NCBI RefSeq assembly: GCF_000186345.1
Contig: NC_014962.1
Location: 3,438,450 to 3,502,449 of the forward strand
Length of the DNA stretch: 64,000 bases
Source of the DNA: Isosphaera pallida ATCC 43644
GTDB taxonomy: Bacteria; Planctomycetota; Planctomycetia; Isosphaerales; Isosphaeraceae
Direction: 5' to 3'
In this document: one piece after another, positions 9,795 to 25,298 of the stretch
How the letters are laid out: every line of letters begins with the position of its first letter
Position numbering within the stretch: position 1 is the stretch's first letter
The notes under the pieces: generated by a model
Told to the model about the DNA's origin: nothing
Seen by the model: the letters and a program-made list of their open reading frames with translations, nothing else
The model's database searches: none
Made by a program: the position numbers and the translations under genes

Positions 9795-10610
9795 TCAGGC
9801 GGGGTCGGATGGATCGGATAGGCGTTGGGCGGCGAGTTGTGATCGGAGTTGTTCGATGAGTTGGGCTTGCTCTTGAAGTTGTTTGAGGGCGTTTTCGGCG
9901 CGTTGATGTTCGGCCTCGGCGCGTTGACGTTCGGCCTCGGCGCGTTGACGTTCGGCCTGGACGCGTTGGTGCAGTTCCAGGAAGGAGACGAACGGTTCGC
10001 CGTCGGGTCTTAGGATCCGCATTGGCTTGAGGTCTGGTTGGAACCGGATTCCCAGGCGTGGGCTGACGAAACCGATTGTCTGTTGGGGCGTCAAGGCGTT
10101 GAGACGTCCTTCCTGTCGCAGGCGGATTTCTAGAGCTTGACGCTCCGGTTCGGGTTCGAAGAGGTAGTATTCCTCAACGCCGTGGCGTTGGTAGAAGTCG
10201 AGTTTGTGGTCCAACTCGGCCTTGGTGTTTCCGGGCGAGAGGATCTCGAAGACGACGTGGGCGGGGATGTGGTCTTCGAGCCACATTTTGTAGGAGCCGC
10301 GAGGTCCTTTGGGACGACCGAAGACGACCATAACGTCGGGAGCGGTGCGTTCACGGTCGTCGTTGGGGTTGGGGTACCAGAGGAGGTCGGCGGCGACGAA
10401 GACGTGGGGATGGTTTTGGAAGAGGAGTTCGAGGTTTTCTTTGATGACGACGATCCATTGGTAATGGAGGGTGTTGAAGGCCATAGGGAGACCGTCTTCG
10501 TCGGGGAAGGAGTTGATGTGGTGGTGGTGATGTTGGCGGTGTTGGAGTTGGGTGTTGGAGTGAGGATCATGGTGTGGGAGTGGGGTGGAGGTGGTGTTGG
10601 GGGGAGTCAT
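9795..10610 (-). CDS. Uma2-family (DUF820) putative nuclease, tandem copy 1
   Basis: This 271-residue protein has the PD-(D/E)xK fold pattern of Uma2 proteins: PDVMVVFG, then VFEILSPGNT with the catalytic Glu, then HKLDFYQRHGVEEYYLF with the Lys. The fold suggests a restriction-like endonuclease, but the cellular role of the family is not established. The N-terminus is odd, with many Pro, Thr and His residues and a run of five His. The C-terminus is a coiled coil made of three QAERQRA-type heptads. The start at 10610 is set by a GGAGGTC ribosome-binding site shared by all three copies; an extension to 10697 would overlap the neighbouring copy. The last 12 residues differ from copies 2 and 3. 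Confidence 0.85.
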   Translation of the reverse strand: MTPPNTTSTPLPHHDPHSNTQLQHRQHHHHHINSFPDEDGLPMAFNTLHYQWIVVIKENLELLFQNHPHVFVAADLLWYPNPNDDRERTAPDVMVVFGRPKGPRGSYKMWLEDHIPAHVVFEILSPGNTKAELDHKLDFYQRHGVEEYYLFEPEPERQALEIRLRQEGRLNALTPQQTIGFVSPRLGIRFQPDLKPMRILRPDGEPFVSFLELHQRVQAERQRAEAERQRAEAEHQRAENALKQLQEQAQLIEQLRSQLAAQRLSDPSDPA

Positions 10611-10680: not shown

Positions 10681-11565
10681 TTATGAAGAAGGGTCATTGA
10701 GTTGTGTTTTGTTTTGGGCGGCGGCGAGTTGTGATCGGAGCTGTTCGATGAGTTGGGCTTGCTCTTGAAGTTGTTTGAGGGCGTTTTCGGCGCGTTGATG
10801 TTCGGCCTCGGCGCGTTGACGTTCGGCCTCGGCGCGTTGATGTTCGGCCTCAGCGCGTTGATGTTCGGCCTCAGCGCGTTGATGTTCGGCCTGGGCGCGT
10901 TGATGTTCGGCCTGGACGCGTTGGTGCAGTTCCAGGAAGGAGACGAACGGTTCGCCGTCGGGTCTTAGGATCCGCATTGGCTTGAGGTCTGGTTGGAACC
11001 GGATTCCCAGGCGTGGGCTGACGAAACCGATTGTCTGTTGGGGCGTCAAGGCGTTGAGACGTCCTTCCTGTCGCAGGCGGATTTCTAGAGCTTGACGCTC
11101 CGGTTCGGGTTCGAAGAGGTAGTATTCCTCAACGCCGTGGCGTTGGTAGAAGTCGAGTTTGTGGTCCAACTCGGCCTTGGTGTTTCCGGGCGAGAGGATC
11201 TCGAAGACGACGTGGGCGGGGATGTGGTCTTCGAGCCACATTTTGTAGGAGCCGCGAGGTCCTTTGGGACGACCGAAGACGACCATAACGTCGGGAGCGG
11301 TGCGTTCACGGTCGTCGTTGGGGTTGGGGTACCAGAGGAGGTCGGCGGCGACGAAGACGTGGGGATGGTTTTGGAAGAGGAGTTCGAGGTTTTCTTTGAT
11401 GACGACGATCCATTGGTAATGGAGGGTGTTGAAGGCCATAGGGAGACCGTCTTCGTCGGGGAAGGAGTTGATGTGGTGGTGGTGATGTTGGCGGTGTTGG
11501 AGTTGGGTGTTGGAGTGAGGATCATGGTGTGGGAGTGGGGTGGAGGTGGTGTTGGGGGGAGTCAT
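10681..11565 (-). CDS. Uma2-family (DUF820) putative nuclease, tandem copy 2
   Basis: This 294-residue near-identical paralogue of the flanking genes shares the same catalytic signature residues and His-rich N-terminus as copy 1. It differs by carrying six coiled-coil heptads instead of three, and it ends in AAAQNKTQLNDPSS, as copy 3 does. The ATG at 11565 follows the shared GGAGGTC site. A spacer of about 70 bp separates each copy, and that spacer is also duplicated. The three genes share a strand and could form one transcript. Confidence 0.85.
   Translation of the reverse strand: MTPPNTTSTPLPHHDPHSNTQLQHRQHHHHHINSFPDEDGLPMAFNTLHYQWIVVIKENLELLFQNHPHVFVAADLLWYPNPNDDRERTAPDVMVVFGRPKGPRGSYKMWLEDHIPAHVVFEILSPGNTKAELDHKLDFYQRHGVEEYYLFEPEPERQALEIRLRQEGRLNALTPQQTIGFVSPRLGIRFQPDLKPMRILRPDGEPFVSFLELHQRVQAEHQRAQAEHQRAEAEHQRAEAEHQRAEAERQRAEAEHQRAENALKQLQEQAQLIEQLRSQLAAAQNKTQLNDPSS
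10789..10914 (-). repeat. 21-bp coding minisatellite, six units (heptad coiled coil)
   Basis: Six 21-bp units encode heptads of the form (E/Q)AE(H/R)QRA. The matching tracts in the neighbouring copies are 9897-9959 (three units) and 11744-11785 (two units). The length changes by whole heptads, so reading frame and coiled-coil register are kept. Confidence 0.9.
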
Positions 11566-11635: not shown

Positions 11636-12430
11636 TTATGAAGAAGGGTCATTGAGTTGTGTTTTGTTTTGGGCGGCGGCGAGTTGTGATCGGAGCTGTT
11701 CGATAAGTTGGGCTTGCTCTTGAAGCTGTTTGAGGGCGTTTTCGGCGCGTTGATGTTCGGCCTCGGCGCGTTGACGTTCGGCCTGGACGCGTTGGTGCAG
11801 TTCCAGGAAGGAGACGAACGGTTCGCCGTCGGGTCTTAGGATCCGCATTGGCTTGAGGTCTGGTTGGAACCGGATTCCCAGGCGTGGGCTGACGAAACCG
11901 ATTGTCTGTTGGGGCGTCAAGGCGTTGAGACGTCCTTCCTGTCGCAGGCGGATTTCTAGAGCTTGACGCTCCGGTTCGGGATCGAAGAGGTAGTATTCTT
12001 CAACGCCGTGGCGTTGGTAGAAGTCGAGTTTGTGGTCCAACTCGGCCTTAGTGTTTCCAGGCGAGAGGATCTCGAAGACGACGTGGGCGGGGATGTGGTC
12101 TTCGAGCCACATTTTGTAGGAGCCGCGAGGTCCTTTGGGACGACCGAAGACGACCATGACGTCGGGCGCGGTGCGTTCACGGTCGTCGTTGGGGTTGGGG
12201 TACCAGAGGAGGTCGGCGGCGACGAAGACGTGGGGATGGTTTTGGAAGAGGAGTTCGAGGTTTTCTTTGATAACGACGATCCATTGGTAATGGAGGGTAT
12301 TGAAGGCCATAGGGAGACCGTCTTCGTCGGGGAAGGAGTTGATGTGGTGAGGTTGGCGGTGTTGGAGTTGGGTGTTGGGGTGAGGATCATGGTGTGGGAG
12401 TGTGGTGGAGGTGGTGTTGGGGGGAGTCAT
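11636..12430 (-). CDS. Uma2-family (DUF820) putative nuclease, tandem copy 3
   Basis: This 264-residue copy is the upstream-most of the array in transcription order. It has only two coiled-coil heptads, a shorter His tract (two His fewer), and scattered silent and conservative changes such as YLFDPEPE for YLFEPEPE. It therefore appears to be the most diverged of the three. The catalytic Asp, Glu and Lys positions are intact. It uses the same GGAGGTC site, with ATG at 12430. Confidence 0.85.
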   Translation of the reverse strand: MTPPNTTSTTLPHHDPHPNTQLQHRQPHHINSFPDEDGLPMAFNTLHYQWIVVIKENLELLFQNHPHVFVAADLLWYPNPNDDRERTAPDVMVVFGRPKGPRGSYKMWLEDHIPAHVVFEILSPGNTKAELDHKLDFYQRHGVEEYYLFDPEPERQALEIRLRQEGRLNALTPQQTIGFVSPRLGIRFQPDLKPMRILRPDGEPFVSFLELHQRVQAERQRAEAEHQRAENALKQLQEQAQLIEQLRSQLAAAQNKTQLNDPSS

Positions 12431-16588: not shown

Positions 16589-17776
16589 ATGACCCTTTCG
16601 TCTTCTCGTGTTTCTCCACCGTTGGCCGCGGGGAATGTTGCCGCTGGGCCAATCCGGGCGGCTTATGTTCACATCCCCTTTTGTGCGCATAAGTGCGGCT
16701 ATTGCGACTTCGCCAGTCTCGCTGGGGCGGATCATCTGGCCGACCGGTACCTCGACGCGCTGGAACGGGAGATCGAGCGGGTGTTAGAGGGGCGTCCGGC
16801 TCCCGTGGAAACGGTGTTTGTGGGTGGGGGGACACCGACCCGGTTGACCGCAGCCCAACTGGAACGGCTCACCGCGATGGTGTCCTCCTGGTTTCCTTTG
16901 GTTTCAGGAGGCGAGTGGACGGTTGAGGCCAACCCCGGCACGCTCGATCGGGACAAGGTCGAAGTCCTCGTTCAAGGTGGGGTCAATCGGATCAGTTTGG
17001 GAGCGCAGTCGTTCCAACGTCGATCGTTGGCGATACTGGAACGAGCTCACGACCCGGCTGAAGTAGTTCGTGGTGTGGAGTTGATCGCGTCTCGATTTGA
17101 TCGCTGGTCGCTCGACCTGATTTTCGGCGTTCCCGGCTCAACGTTGAACGACTGGAAAGCCGACCTGTCCGCGGCTTTGGCTCTGGGACCAAGTCATTTA
17201 TCTTGCTATGGATTGATCTTCGAGAAGGGAACTCCGCTTTGGAAGCGTCGGAGGCGCGGCGAGGTCAGTTCCGTTCCCGACGAGTTGGAGCGGGCCATGT
17301 TCGACCACACCGTGGAGACTCTTGAAACCGCGGGACTGTCCGCTTACGAGATCAGCAACCACGCCCGCCCTGGCCACGAGTGTCGTCATAATTTGATCTA
17401 TTGGGCGAACGAACCGTTTTACGGGGTCGGCTTGGGAGCAGCGGCTTATCGTAACGGCGAGCGCACGGTCAACACCCGCGACCTCAACGCCTACCTCGCC
17501 CGGATCGAGGCGGGACGCTCGCCGATTGGTCCCCGCGAGCGTCTCGAACCCCGCGCCCGCGCCGGCGAGACCGCTATGTTGATGCTGCGGCGCGTTGTCT
17601 TGGGGATCGATCGCGCTGAGTTTCGCCTAAGGACAGGTTACGATCTCGACACCCTTTACAGCGACGTGATCGCCAAACATCTGCAACGAGGCTGGCTCGA
17701 GGACGACGGCCGCCGCGTCCGGCTCACCCGCGCCTCGTGGTTTCTGTCAGACGCGGTGATGGTCGATTTTGTTTGA
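16589..17776 (+). CDS. hemW: HemW-type radical SAM protein (coproporphyrinogen III oxidase-like heme chaperone)
   Basis: This 395-residue protein has the radical SAM triad CX3CX2C in FCAHKCGYCDF (C32, C36, C39). The Phe after the triad is typical of HemW rather than HemN. Other family landmarks are ETVFVGGGTPT, EANPGT, RISLGAQSF, DLIFGVPG, LSCYGLIFEKGTPL and the HN-YW segment ECRHNLIYW. HemW proteins bind heme and pass it to respiratory proteins; they are often misannotated as oxygen-independent coproporphyrinogen oxidases. The TGA at 17774-17776 is followed with no gap by the G-rich end of a palindromic repeat element. Confidence 0.92.
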   Translation: MTLSSSRVSPPLAAGNVAAGPIRAAYVHIPFCAHKCGYCDFASLAGADHLADRYLDALEREIERVLEGRPAPVETVFVGGGTPTRLTAAQLERLTAMVSSWFPLVSGGEWTVEANPGTLDRDKVEVLVQGGVNRISLGAQSFQRRSLAILERAHDPAEVVRGVELIASRFDRWSLDLIFGVPGSTLNDWKADLSAALALGPSHLSCYGLIFEKGTPLWKRRRRGEVSSVPDELERAMFDHTVETLETAGLSAYEISNHARPGHECRHNLIYWANEPFYGVGLGAAAYRNGERTVNTRDLNAYLARIEAGRSPIGPRERLEPRARAGETAMLMLRRVVLGIDRAEFRLRTGYDLDTLYSDVIAKHLQRGWLEDDGRRVRLTRASWFLSDAVMVDFV

Positions 17777-18359
17777 GGTGTGGGGTGTGGGGTGTGGGGT
17801 GTGGGGTGTGGGGAGTGGGGAGTGGGGTGTGGGGTGTGGGGAGTGGGGTGTGGGGAGTGGGGTGTGGGGAGTGGGGAGTGGAGAGTGGAGAGTGGGGTGT
17901 GGAGAGTGGGGAGTGGAGAGTGGGATGTGGGGTGATCGGAGGGGAAAATGTAGGGTTTTGGAAGGAAAGGGTGAGAATTGGGAAGAGTGGGTCAAAGGTT
18001 GAAGGCAAGACGCGCCGCTTCCCCAAGTCCAACGGGGTCATTCCTCAAGCTCAGAAGTGCAACTCTGGGAAGGTGTTGAACGGATGCTAGATGCTCCCAC
18101 CGATCCCGTGATCGCGTTTGGTTGCGTTTCTCTCCCGAGTCCAACGGGGTCGGCAAAGCAGCGCGTCTTGCCTTCTCCTTCGACCCACTCTTCCCAATTC
18201 TCACCCTTTCCTTCCAAAATCCTACATTCCCATATCATTCCCAATTCTCATTTTCCCCTCCGATCACCCCATACCCCACACCCCACTCTCCACTCCCCAC
18301 ACCCCACACCCCACTCCCCACACCCCACACCCCACTCCCCACTCCCCACACCCCACACC
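17777..18359. repeat. palindromic convergent-gene element, copy 1 (one 112-bp core unit)
   Basis: The 583-bp region between the hemW stop and the Nudix stop has a nested mirror layout. Outermost are heptameric arrays of (T/A)GTGGGG type (17777-17930, and their complement 18269-18359). Inside them are inverted arms (17931-18039 against about 18140-18268) beginning GGTGATCGGAGGGGAAAATG. The core contains one 112-bp unit (18040-18151) in reverse orientation relative to copy 2. The right arm is about 22 bp longer than the left. After the TGA of both flanking genes the sequence reads GGTGTGGGG, reading outward from either gene. Coding frames inside are not credible. The function is unknown; a bidirectional terminator or a mobile palindrome are the main ideas. 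Confidence 0.85.
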
Positions 18360-18782
18360 TCACTCCATGTGGCCAAACACCTCGACCAGTTGACTGATCA
18401 CCGGGCCGTTGGCGGGTGGGAAGGTCAAGTTCGGCAAGTCGGCCACGTCACGCCAGACGAAGCCGGATTCTGGGGTGGGTTGCGCGTCGGGTTCGATGGG
18501 TTCGCAAAGGTAGTAAGATAACTCGACGGGGCCATGAGGGTAAATATATCGTAAGGTGTTCCAATAGCGGACGACCCTAACCCTCAAACCAGTTTCCTCC
18601 AGGCATTCGCGGACAACGGCCTCTTCAGGAGTTTCATCGGCTTCCAGCTTTCCACCGGGGAATTCCCATACACCGGGCATCGGCCCGCCCTTGGGACGCA
18701 CTCGGACGAGGAACCGGCGGTCCCGCCGCACCATCGCCAAACCCACCCTCAAAAACATTGGTGGAGGATCGGAAGCATTCAT
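18360..18782 (-). CDS. Nudix hydrolase (MutT-like)
   Basis: This 140-residue protein has a complete Nudix box, GX5EX7REUXEEXGU, at residues 43-66 (GGKLEADETPEEAVVRECLE followed by ETGL). The preceding PMPGVWEFPGG and the following Tyr-rich strand fit the MutT/8-oxo-dGTPase branch, though (d)NTP specificity cannot be fixed from sequence. It probably hydrolyses a damaged nucleoside triphosphate. Its TGA stop (18362-18360) abuts the C-rich end of the palindromic element, and it is convergent with hemW. Confidence 0.9.
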   Translation of the reverse strand: MNASDPPPMFLRVGLAMVRRDRRFLVRVRPKGGPMPGVWEFPGGKLEADETPEEAVVRECLEETGLRVRVVRYWNTLRYIYPHGPVELSYYLCEPIEPDAQPTPESGFVWRDVADLPNLTFPPANGPVISQLVEVFGHME

Positions 18783-22744: not shown

Positions 22745-23602
22745 ATGGGTGGACTGAGTGGGTCACGGACATACCAACTGGCGATCGCCGGCGCGTTGGG
22801 GGCGATCGTGGGGTTGTATTTGACGGTCGAACTGGTCAAGGTTCAGGGGTTGTGGGCGCGGGACGCCCTGGCTGGGATGTTTCTGGGGGGAATGATCGGC
22901 TTCTTCCTCAACGCCGCCGAACCATGGCGCGACGGGGCCTGGCTCAAGCTAGCCCGCGAGGGCACCGCTGGCACCTTGGCCGGCGCGATCGGTGGAGCGA
23001 TCGGGTTGTTGATCGGTGAATTCGTCCTGGGCGGTTTTCAGGGAGGCTTGATGGGCCGTTCGGTCTCGTGGGCGATTTTGGGGCTGGGCATCGGAGTTTC
23101 ACAGGGCCTAGCGCATCGTTCTTGGCAGCGTCTCCGCCTGGGATTGATCGGTGGCGGCCTGGGCGGTCTGGGGGGGGGGTTCCTATTCGAGTTGATTCGT
23201 GAGAGTTTGGGGCCGGAGCGTTATTCCATTAGCCAAGGTTTGGGAATCGTCATTTTGGGAGCTGGTCTGGGTTTGAGCCTGGCTTTGGTGGAACAGGCGT
23301 TGCGACGCGCCTGGCTAGTGGTTCTCAATGGTCGTCAAGAAGGTCGGATTTTCCTTCTAGGCCGTTCGGTCAGCCGCATCGGGCTGGACGAGCGGGCCGA
23401 GATCGGTCTCTTCGGCGATCCTGGGGTGAGCCGTCGTCACGGCGAACTTCGCGCCCAGGGCGACTCGTTCCAGTTCGTGCCGCTCGATCCCGCCAAGCCC
23501 ACCGCGATCAACGGCCAACCCCTCGACGGCCCCCGCCTTCTGCGCGATGGCGACCGCCTGGAGTTGGGCCGCACGCTACTGGTGTTTCGGTTGCGAAATT
23601 GA
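22745..23602 (+). CDS. multi-pass membrane protein with C-terminal FHA domain
   Basis: The first 190 or so of 285 residues are strongly hydrophobic and Gly-rich, forming perhaps six membrane helices with glycine-zipper-like GGAIG and GGGLGG segments. The C-terminal part is an FHA domain: SRIGLDERAEIGLFGDPGVS, then RRHGELR, then AINGQPLDGPRLLRDGDRLELG. FHA domains bind phosphothreonine peptides, so the protein may bring phosphorylated targets to the membrane. That fits a genome rich in Ser/Thr kinases. The TGA at 23600-23602 touches the start of palindromic element copy 2. Confidence 0.8.
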   Translation: MGGLSGSRTYQLAIAGALGAIVGLYLTVELVKVQGLWARDALAGMFLGGMIGFFLNAAEPWRDGAWLKLAREGTAGTLAGAIGGAIGLLIGEFVLGGFQGGLMGRSVSWAILGLGIGVSQGLAHRSWQRLRLGLIGGGLGGLGGGFLFELIRESLGPERYSISQGLGIVILGAGLGLSLALVEQALRRAWLVVLNGRQEGRIFLLGRSVSRIGLDERAEIGLFGDPGVSRRHGELRAQGDSFQFVPLDPAKPTAINGQPLDGPRLLRDGDRLELGRTLLVFRLRN

Positions 23603-24074
23603 GAGTGTGGGGAGTGGGGAGTTCGGAGGGGAGAATGAGAATTGGGAATGATATGAGAATGTGTGTTTTAGGAAGGAAAGGGTGAGAATTGGGAAGAGTG
23701 GGTCAAAGGTTGAAGGCAAGACGCGCTGCTTTGCCGACCCCGTTGGACTCGGTCAAGAAATGCAACCAAACGCGATCACGGGATCGTTGGGAGCATCTGG
23801 CATCCCCTCAACACCTTCCCAGAGTTGCACTTCTGAGCTTGAGGAAGGACCCCGTTGGACTCGGTCAAGAAATGCAACCAAACGCGATCACGGGATCGTT
23901 GGGAGCATCTGGCATCCCCTCAACACCTTCCCAGAGTTGCACTTCTGAGCTTGAGGAAGGACCCCGTTGGACTCGGGGAAGCAGCGCGTCTGGCCTTCAA
24001 CCTTCGACCCACTCTTCCCAATTCTCACCCTTTCCTTCTCAAACCCTACATTTTCCCCTCCGAACTCCCCACTT
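23603..24074. repeat. palindromic convergent-gene element, copy 2 (two 112-bp core units)
   Basis: This 472-bp element fills the gap between the FHA gene stop (TGA, 23600-23602) and the RNase HII-like gene stop (TGA, 24077-24075). The ends carry GTGGGGAGTTCGGAGGGG in inverted orientation, and the arms share the body of copy 1 (for example GTGAGAATTGGGAAGAGTGG). Here the left arm is the long one with the extra AATTGGGAATGATAT segment, whereas in copy 1 it is the right arm. So the two copies are the same structure in opposite orientation. The heptamer arrays are almost absent in this copy (about three units left, one right). Confidence 0.85.
23736..23959. repeat. two direct 112-bp units in the core of element copy 2
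   Basis: Units start with GACCCCGTTGGACTCGG at 23736 and 23848, and a third partial start occurs at 23960; both steps are exactly 112 bp. The two units look identical by eye. Each contains GATCACGGGATC and the short inverted pair TGCAAC/GTTGCA. The reverse complement of one unit, with about ten differences, forms the core of copy 1 at 18040-18151. Confidence 0.92.
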
Positions 24075-25298
24075 TCACCGGCTCCGCCACCAGACGGCCG
24101 GCTCCAGACCGAGTCGCTCGGCGAGGGGGGCGATCTGGTCACGGAAGCGGCGGGCGTCGAGCGGGTAGCCAGCGGTGGGACGAAGGGTGGGAAGATGAGC
24201 GATCCAGAAGGCGTTGAAGCGATCCATCCACCCTTCGCGCAACGACTTGGCCACCACCGAGGCCAACGCCACCGCCGCGTCGTCGCGGTCGGCTTTGGCG
24301 CGGAAGGAAATGACCAAACGGCGGGGGGATTTGCTGGCCAAACCCAGCGCGTCGGTCGCGGTGAGGCGATAAGAACGGGCGTCGGGTGATTCCTCGATCA
24401 CTTCGACTCGACAAAACGCGCCGAAGGCGTCAGTGAGCGGCTTGAGATAGTAGCGGCGGCCGCCGTGGAGGTCGCATTGCGCAATAGTCAGGTCGGCGGG
24501 AGAGTCGTTCCAAACCTGTGTGAGTAAATTCATAAATAAACGACAATGCACATCAGCCTTGGTTTGGGGTGGGAGCGTGTCGCGTTTGAGCCGATGGGAT
24601 GAGGAGAAGGAGGCGGCGTGTTCCCGCGGCGACTCCAACGGCGCGTGGAGCCAGGCTTCGAAGCGTCGGGGACCGAGCAAGGCGGCGCGAGGGGGACGGA
24701 CTTGCCAGCGTCCGGGGTGATCGAGGGGCGAGACACCGTTGCGCTGCGCCTTCCAGAACGGATTGGTCAGGGGCGAACGGGCCGAAGATAATGCAGAGGG
24801 GGGGGCTGGGGTTGTGGTGGAGGTTTCGGGGACGTGCCAGTTCCAAAGGTCCAATTCGTTGAGGACCAGGTCGGTTAAGCCAACGGCGGCCAGCTGATCC
24901 TCCAGGACAAGGCTGGGCTGCGACCAGGCGGCCGAGTCGGTCAAAAGAGTCAACAACGCGGCGTCAAGCCGGTCGCGGCCGCGTCGAGTGGAGTAAAGTG
25001 ATTTGGAGTCGTCGATCCACAGCGCGTGCTCGGGGCCGCCTGCCCGCGTCACTCGGCCAGCCGAGGCAGACCAGAGATTAAACGGTGGTGGAGTCGAGCG
25101 ACCGTCCCAACCCTGGGCGTGGGCATAGTCGGCGGCGAAATCGAAGATTGCCGCAGCCATCGTCAGCGGTCCCAGGTTGGGACCATAACCCGCTTCATCG
25201 ATGCCGACGTAACGGACGAATGGTTGGGCGTCCCACTCGGGTCGGGAACGTCCCGGTGGAGCGCTGTTCGCGTTGGGACGTGGCGTGGTGGGATTCAT
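24075..25298 (-). CDS. RNase HII-like protein
   Basis: This 407-residue protein begins, after a Pro/Ala-rich leader, with YVGIDEAGYGPNLGPL, a variant of the RNase HII GIDEAGRGPLAGP signature with the catalytic Asp-Glu pair (D34, E35). Later segments fit the rest of the fold: IAQCDLHGGRRYY (Asp), ALASVVAKSLREGWMDRFN and AGYPLDARRF. It is about twice the size of a normal RNase HII, with a long insertion between residues roughly 130 and 250. It may cut RNA in RNA-DNA hybrids, or be a diverged relative. The stop abuts palindromic element copy 2. I do not assign rnhB because of the altered signature. Confidence 0.6.
   Translation of the reverse strand: MNPTTPRPNANSAPPGRSRPEWDAQPFVRYVGIDEAGYGPNLGPLTMAAAIFDFAADYAHAQGWDGRSTPPPFNLWSASAGRVTRAGGPEHALWIDDSKSLYSTRRGRDRLDAALLTLLTDSAAWSQPSLVLEDQLAAVGLTDLVLNELDLWNWHVPETSTTTPAPPSALSSARSPLTNPFWKAQRNGVSPLDHPGRWQVRPPRAALLGPRRFEAWLHAPLESPREHAASFSSSHRLKRDTLPPQTKADVHCRLFMNLLTQVWNDSPADLTIAQCDLHGGRRYYLKPLTDAFGAFCRVEVIEESPDARSYRLTATDALGLASKSPRRLVISFRAKADRDDAAVALASVVAKSLREGWMDRFNAFWIAHLPTLRPTAGYPLDARRFRDQIAPLAERLGLEPAVWWRSR

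Follow-up and report, generated by a model that had tools for sequence, protein, structure and literature searches.

A palindromic, heptamer-ended element between hemW and a NUDIX gene of Isosphaera pallida: a probable ORF-less member of an IVS-like stem-loop family

An element that fills the gap between two convergent genes

We analysed a 64,000-nucleotide stretch of the Isosphaera pallida ATCC 43644 genome (NC_014962.1, positions 3,438,450 to 3,502,449), hereafter the window; its numbering is used unless a contig (C1 or C2) is named. A 583-bp element (17777-18359) occupies the whole gap between the TGA stops of the convergent genes hemW and a NUDIX hydrolase gene, as a preliminary description of this DNA had claimed. 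The hemW TGA (17774-17776) is followed by GGTGTGGGG, and the NUDIX TGA, read on the minus strand, is followed by the same bases. Because GGTGTGGGG flanks the TGA of both neighbours, the limits of the element are exactly 17777 and 18359. The locus and its features are as follows.

16589-17776, plus strand: hemW, encoding the radical SAM heme chaperone HemW, upstream of the element (TIGR00539, 273 bits, above cut-off); its TGA abuts the element
17777-17934, plus strand: left terminal array of the heptamer (GTGGGGW)n, about 22.6 units (TRF), G-rich on the inward-read strand
17935-18021, plus strand: left sub-terminal arm, in which 17947-17998 is 96% complementary to 18177-18228
18022-18151, no strand assigned: core, a single 112-bp unit with an 18-bp direct repeat at its borders; no evidence of an ORF
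18152-18264, minus strand: right sub-terminal arm, pairing with the left arm
18265-18359, minus strand: right terminal array of the inverted GTGGGGW heptamer, abutting the NUDIX stop codon (by TRF 18265-18363, 14 units)
18360-18782, minus strand: NUDIX hydrolase gene, downstream and convergent (ORF ends in TGA)
23603-24074, no strand assigned: copy 2 of the element, with two tandem 112-bp core units and short terminal heptamer runs

The outer heptamer arrays are complementary to each other, as are the inner arms. Mirror-image arms around a 112-bp core, framed by heptamer arrays, had been proposed; the arms and arrays stand, and what had been called the core is a direct-repeat unit whose 18-bp repeat (18022-18039 and 18134-18151) measures 112 bp from start to start. 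The minimum free energy of the element folded as RNA is -433.5 kcal/mol, compared with -254.6 ± 7.0 kcal/mol for 100 dinucleotide shuffles, none of which folded as well (z = -25.7). Since the heptamer is G-rich on the inward-read strand, both neighbouring transcripts would enter a G-rich array just past the stop codon. On neither strand is there a U-tract or T-run after the stem; coding sequence follows this huge stem directly. No target-site duplication is visible at 17776/18360, and Rfam searches with the element and nine other loci returned no match. We know of no transposase with such heptamer-array ends.

The arm and core sequence was found at only three places in the I. pallida genome, all within 41 kb (C2:3422162, 3456380 and 3462072). 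The two core units of copy 2 are identical (TRF 23736-23976, 100%), and this copy is also flush with TGA stops, those of an FHA-domain-like gene (22745-23602, plus strand) and an RNase HII-like gene (24075-25298, minus strand). The third copy is truncated (C2:3422022). A search of 58 relatives gave no arm or core match beyond the I. pallida genome; conservation therefore does not reside in the core.

Heptamer arrays at stop codons across the genome

We located heptamer arrays throughout the I. pallida genome (5,472,964 + 56,340 bp) and then examined 20 stretches around them. The terminal arrays are far commoner than the arms and core, with about 20 further chromosomal sites and one plasmid site. 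The element is thus a repeat in multiple copies flush with stops, as had been supposed. Most sites are inward-facing G-rich/C-rich pairs of (GTGGGGW)n, 0.3-1.2 kb apart. Their interiors vary from site to site (several are palindromic and some have common sequence), and the sites vary freely in array length and in unit variants.

Rough gene calls, made with a simple codon model, place none of the sites inside a gene; they give 8 convergent and about 10 co-directional sites, with a few divergent or unclear. The preliminary description had tied the element to convergent stops and had named the genome-wide share of copies inside genes or between co-directional ones as the check; with 8 convergent against about 10 co-directional sites, that association is weak. 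Because sites are both convergent and co-directional, stop-codon adjacency, not convergence, is the rule. Stop-facing ends lie a median of 4 nt from the codon (24 ends), compared with 203 nt for start-facing ends (11 ends; p = 2.7e-6), where distances run to the first full heptamer unit and were transferred by hand from the codon-model gene calls. The suggestion that the element may supply the stop codon itself holds in sister genomes, where the repeat does so at L091 (AAA/TAGCGGG), L196 (AAG/TAGCGGG) and L109 (GAG/TAGGAGT).

Other repeats were encountered as well. One heptamer pair (L076, C2:2966380-2966660) encloses a second tandem array with a unit of about 27 nt, GGGGTGCTTGGAGTGGGACGCGAGAAGC. 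Within the window, three arrays of a 21-nt unit, TCGGCGCGTTGAYGTTCGGCC, lie within 2 kb of sequence (9895-9968, 10787-10923 and 11742-11794). The ends of the plasmid contig, outside the window, fall inside a heptamer array (C1:56174-56340 and C1:1-49), so the assembled length of the array there may be wrong.

An IVP gene within a sister element

At C2:2792571-2793786 we identified a sister element with an AT-richer core and a complete 123-aa ORF between heptamer ends. The ORF encodes a 23S-rRNA intervening-sequence/four-helix-bundle protein (IVP/S23; PF05635, E = 3e-39, C2:2792994-2793308; TIGR02436), with relatives of solved structure (2gsc/XCC0516 and 2rld). The sole IVP gene of the I. pallida genome sits within a GTGGGGW-ended element. 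Inward-facing GTGGGGW arrays, the feature by which we assign membership, are common to the queried locus and this IVP-bearing sister. Apart from these arrays the queried arms and core have no sequence in common with it, and descent from an IVP-bearing element is therefore argued from architecture. We found no IVP remnant in the queried core and none, at family level, in the ORF-less elements of I. pallida. The same heptamer array occurs in 2 of 98 relatives; in one of these, G017, the distance between the array and an IVP gene is 74 bp.

IVP genes between inverted heptamers in five phyla

Our survey covered 83 IVP loci in five phyla, including other Planctomycetia and plasmids of cyanobacteria, Riemerella, Gemmatirosa and Azospirillum; some of the relatives' genomes are drafts. 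Most IVP genes are flanked on both sides by inward-facing arrays; the repeat unit is 7 nt (sometimes 8 nt) long and varies in sequence among loci. Repeats of the lag-7 type (score at least 14) are present in 89 of 166 IVP flank windows and in 5 of 163 control windows 0.7 kb away, and the lag is 7, 14 or 21 nt in 74 of the 89 repeat-positive windows. When left flanks were compared with the reverse complement of their own right flanks, 63 of 81 same-locus pairs scored at least 14, versus 3/318 for flanks swapped between loci, 2/80 for sequence farther out and 5/81 in direct orientation. We counted 47 distinct heptamers among the 52 loci with a clear unit. AG, AGT and CAG are in excess in these units relative to shuffled ones, and inward-read arrays have more G than C in 102 of 118 cases. 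About one-fifth of IVP loci have no clear inverted repeats; perhaps their arrays have decayed. IVP genes were absent from phages and IMG/VR, so they are not phage-borne there.

In Azospirillum (L133), an IVP element inside 23S rRNA is a classical intervening sequence (IVS) with the same ends, the rRNA on both sides being recognised by eye. Plasmid IVP elements split the conserved gene pairs nrdB/nrdA, cas6/cas4 (twice) and cas10/cmr3, with inverted heptamers near the adjoining start and stop codons. Genus g8 shows the Isosphaera picture again in an independent genome: its genome-specific (AGCGGGT)n forms several IVP-less inverted pairs at stops and starts and provides a stop codon (AAG/TAGCGGG).

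The IVP genes within CRISPR-cas operons (cas6/cas4 and cas10/cmr3), with inverted heptamer ends near the adjoining codons, belong to L130 (NC_019429.1), L134 (NZ_CP112875.1) and L137 (NZ_CP016476.1). IVP genes have been listed as CRISPR-associated (PMC3936711; also PMC10910872). Given the heptamer ends around them, these earlier listings may reflect insertions.

Empty, mini and full sites in sister genomes

Orthologous sites were found by searching joined flanks in sister genomes; this comparison covers element loci of the sister genomes, as distinct from the hemW/NUDIX locus. One site (L102) is 722 bp long with an IVP gene in G059; G030 has an IVP-less mini-element made of TCAGTGG heptamers there, and in G065 and G017 the site is a plain spacer of 107-113 bp. 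At three others (L097, L109 and L112) one species has the full element and others an empty site, and at L108 the element is present in G033 and missing from G006. At L091, G024 has the full element and G007 has arrays but no IVP; in G006 and G059 the sequence runs on uninterrupted through the junction. L109 in G052 and L100 in G093, from two genera of one family, are IVP elements with similar heptamers between the same two genes, just before a gene that by eye resembles that for the ATP synthase beta subunit; sister G050 has a plain spacer there. The empty L097 spacers contain terminator-like hairpins that, judged by eye, are apparently missing from the filled site.

These states support mobility of heptamer-IVP elements between species. 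The preliminary description had considered a mobile or expandable repeat. Expansion is seen in the core unit, which goes from one to two copies, and the queried element is plausibly mobile. Mobility is testable, since sister species have full, mini and empty versions of a site.

Heptamer elements lie directly before an aspartokinase-like start in two different families (L095 in G092 and L195 in G007), possibly a recurrent target. At L208 in G091, the empty L112 site, an unrelated palindrome, nearly perfect (CACCCGTTCGTTAACATTCGCGGTTC ... GAACCGCGAATGTTAACGAACGGGTG), lies in the spacer and may belong to another palindromic repeat family.

Origin and possible function of the queried element

We consider it probable (roughly 0.8) that the queried element belongs, as a non-autonomous copy lacking an ORF, to a family of IVS-like stem-loop insertion elements at gene boundaries. 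The complete form of this family has inward-facing inverted arrays of a genome-specific heptamer as its stem and an IVP/S23/four-helix-bundle gene in its loop. Counting against this explanation are the ratio of one IVP gene to about 20 other sites in I. pallida, the core's lack of an IVP remnant, the fifth or so of IVP loci with no clear inverted repeats, and the failure to establish a target-site duplication for any element.

Tandem-repeat expansion, by slippage or template switching in intergenic DNA with hairpin-mediated correction generating the mirror images, would need no mobile element. It accommodates the free variation of array lengths and unit variants between sites, the doubling of the core unit and the lasting 96% complementarity of the inner arms. 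It leaves unexplained, however, why the unit is usually 7 nt, why unrelated and nearly always inverted heptamers bracket IVP genes in many genomes, and why one site can be empty, mini or full; the swapped-flank control (3/318 versus 63/81) also disfavours it, and we regard expansion as improbable. A host-selected bidirectional terminator or 3'-UTR/G-quadruplex, kept or arisen to end or protect convergent transcripts, deserves more weight. The element abuts stop codons, presents a G-rich sense strand to both genes and can form a very stable hairpin; in Xanthomonas, too, sense-strand heptamers are found no more than 50 bp from stops (PMC4692102), and the terminator-like hairpins of empty sister sites, by eye, are missing from the filled one. 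Yet the stem is without a U-tract on either strand, co-directional sites are about as numerous as convergent ones, many heptamers elsewhere (AGTTTTC, AAAAGCT) are not G4-capable, and such selection would account for retention but not for the IVP link. As the explanation of the element it is doubtful. A putative role as terminator or at the mRNA 3' end is plausible for the queried element. G-quadruplex formation as a general principle was rejected on the same heptamers, which are unable to form one.

Two known routes of mobility fare less well. In the first, IVP and a reverse transcriptase of the group II or DGR type would copy the element. This is suggested by a weak IVP match to the Avd family (NF033474, E = 3e-4) and by the reported homology of the Avd and PF05635 structures (PMC10053308), but RVT_1 genes number zero in the complete I. 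pallida genome and in IVP-bearing G040, G043, G074, G092 and G098, which makes an Avd-like route quite unlikely. The other, mobilisation of a REPIN or MITE by RAYT or another Y1 transposase, suits a palindromic, intergenic, multi-copy element, and some IVP-bearing genomes have many Y1_Tnp genes. The only Y1_Tnp match in I. pallida, however, is marginal and lies inside a 1316-aa frame, IVP-bearing G043 and G074 have none, and the size and heptamer arrays are unlike REP; we judge this route very improbable.

If the queried element does belong to an IVS-like insertion family, IVP-less copies would derive from IVP-bearing ones or be mobilised by them in trans. The IVP protein is a pentameric barrel and a relative of Avd, which binds nucleic acids; it may bind the repeat stem and aid insertion or maintenance, acting together with a general host enzyme. 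Placement at gene boundaries could result from target choice, from selection or from both. The arrays would then lengthen by slippage and fill the spacer, and transcripts of both neighbours would enter a long G-rich hairpin that may process, protect or end the mRNA. ORF-less copies such as the queried one would persist as non-autonomous derivatives.

We tentatively raise a broader proposal, which we would put somewhat short of even odds: IVP may be the dedicated factor of pan-bacterial mobile stem-loop elements with repeat ends of constant 7-nt length and genome-specific sequence, insertion at stop codons and a mechanism unlike known transposition. The 23S rRNA IVSs, the cas-locus IVP genes and the Xanthomonas, Nostoc and Beggiatoaceae heptamers would be members or remnants. 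This would give one explanation for three puzzles, namely widespread four-helix-bundle protein genes, dispersed heptamer arrays and the relation of rRNA IVSs to the rest of the genome, and IVP genes listed with cas genes may be hitchhikers.

Comparison with known systems

Heptamer arrays (PMC4692102, PMC4679880), IVS elements (PMC4990558) and cas-locus IVP genes (PMC3936711, PMC10910872) are each already known. In the open-access literature, our scope as distinct from preprints and subscription journals, we found no paper that joins heptamer arrays to IVP genes. The statement that no described family has this layout holds in part: the anatomy is common to 23S rRNA IVSs and to the heptamer arrays of Xanthomonas and Nostoc.

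The queried element resembles MITEs and REPINs in being short, palindromic, intergenic, multi-copy and free of ORFs and in having a putative autonomous partner, but has terminal heptamer arrays in place of a transposase-specific inverted repeat. The resemblance to the DGR accessory protein Avd is one of protein family: IVP, encoded by the autonomous member, matches the Avd HMM weakly (NF033474). Reverse transcriptase, template repeat and variable repeat are lacking here. The TAACTGA repeats of Beggiatoaceae, cyanobacteria and Bacteroidetes have been interpreted as regulatory, most of them lying ahead of start codons (PMC4679880). They too are intergenic heptamer direct repeats, with a short repeat-free intergenic region in some relatives, but inverted pairs are almost absent (PMC4679880).

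Rehm et al. (2015, PMC4692102) described G-rich heptamers in Xanthomonas (GGGAATC) and Nostoc (GGGGAYT). Convergent inverted pairs are frequent, numbering 70-75 in Xanthomonas, and the repeats lie near stop codons on the sense strand (PMC4692102). These repeats have been read as simple repeats or G-quadruplexes, generally not tied to mobile elements, and no link to IVP was made (PMC4692102). By description, they share with the queried element the heptamer unit, frequent convergent inverted pairs and stop-codon proximity.

The 23S rRNA IVSs of Coxiella, Leptospira and Azospirillum, which encode an S23p/IVP ORF, differ from the queried element in that the latter lies between the protein genes hemW and NUDIX, not in 23S rRNA, is without an IVP/S23p ORF (present in its sister at C2:2792571-2793786), and has much longer heptamer arrays and many copies per genome. 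Both have an inverted-repeat stem, which in the queried element is a long terminal-repeat stem. Full members of both carry an IVP ORF in the loop with tandem heptamers beside it, as in Azospirillum L133, and the Coxiella IVS is reported to have tandem GACAGAT heptamers ahead of its ORF (PMC4990558).
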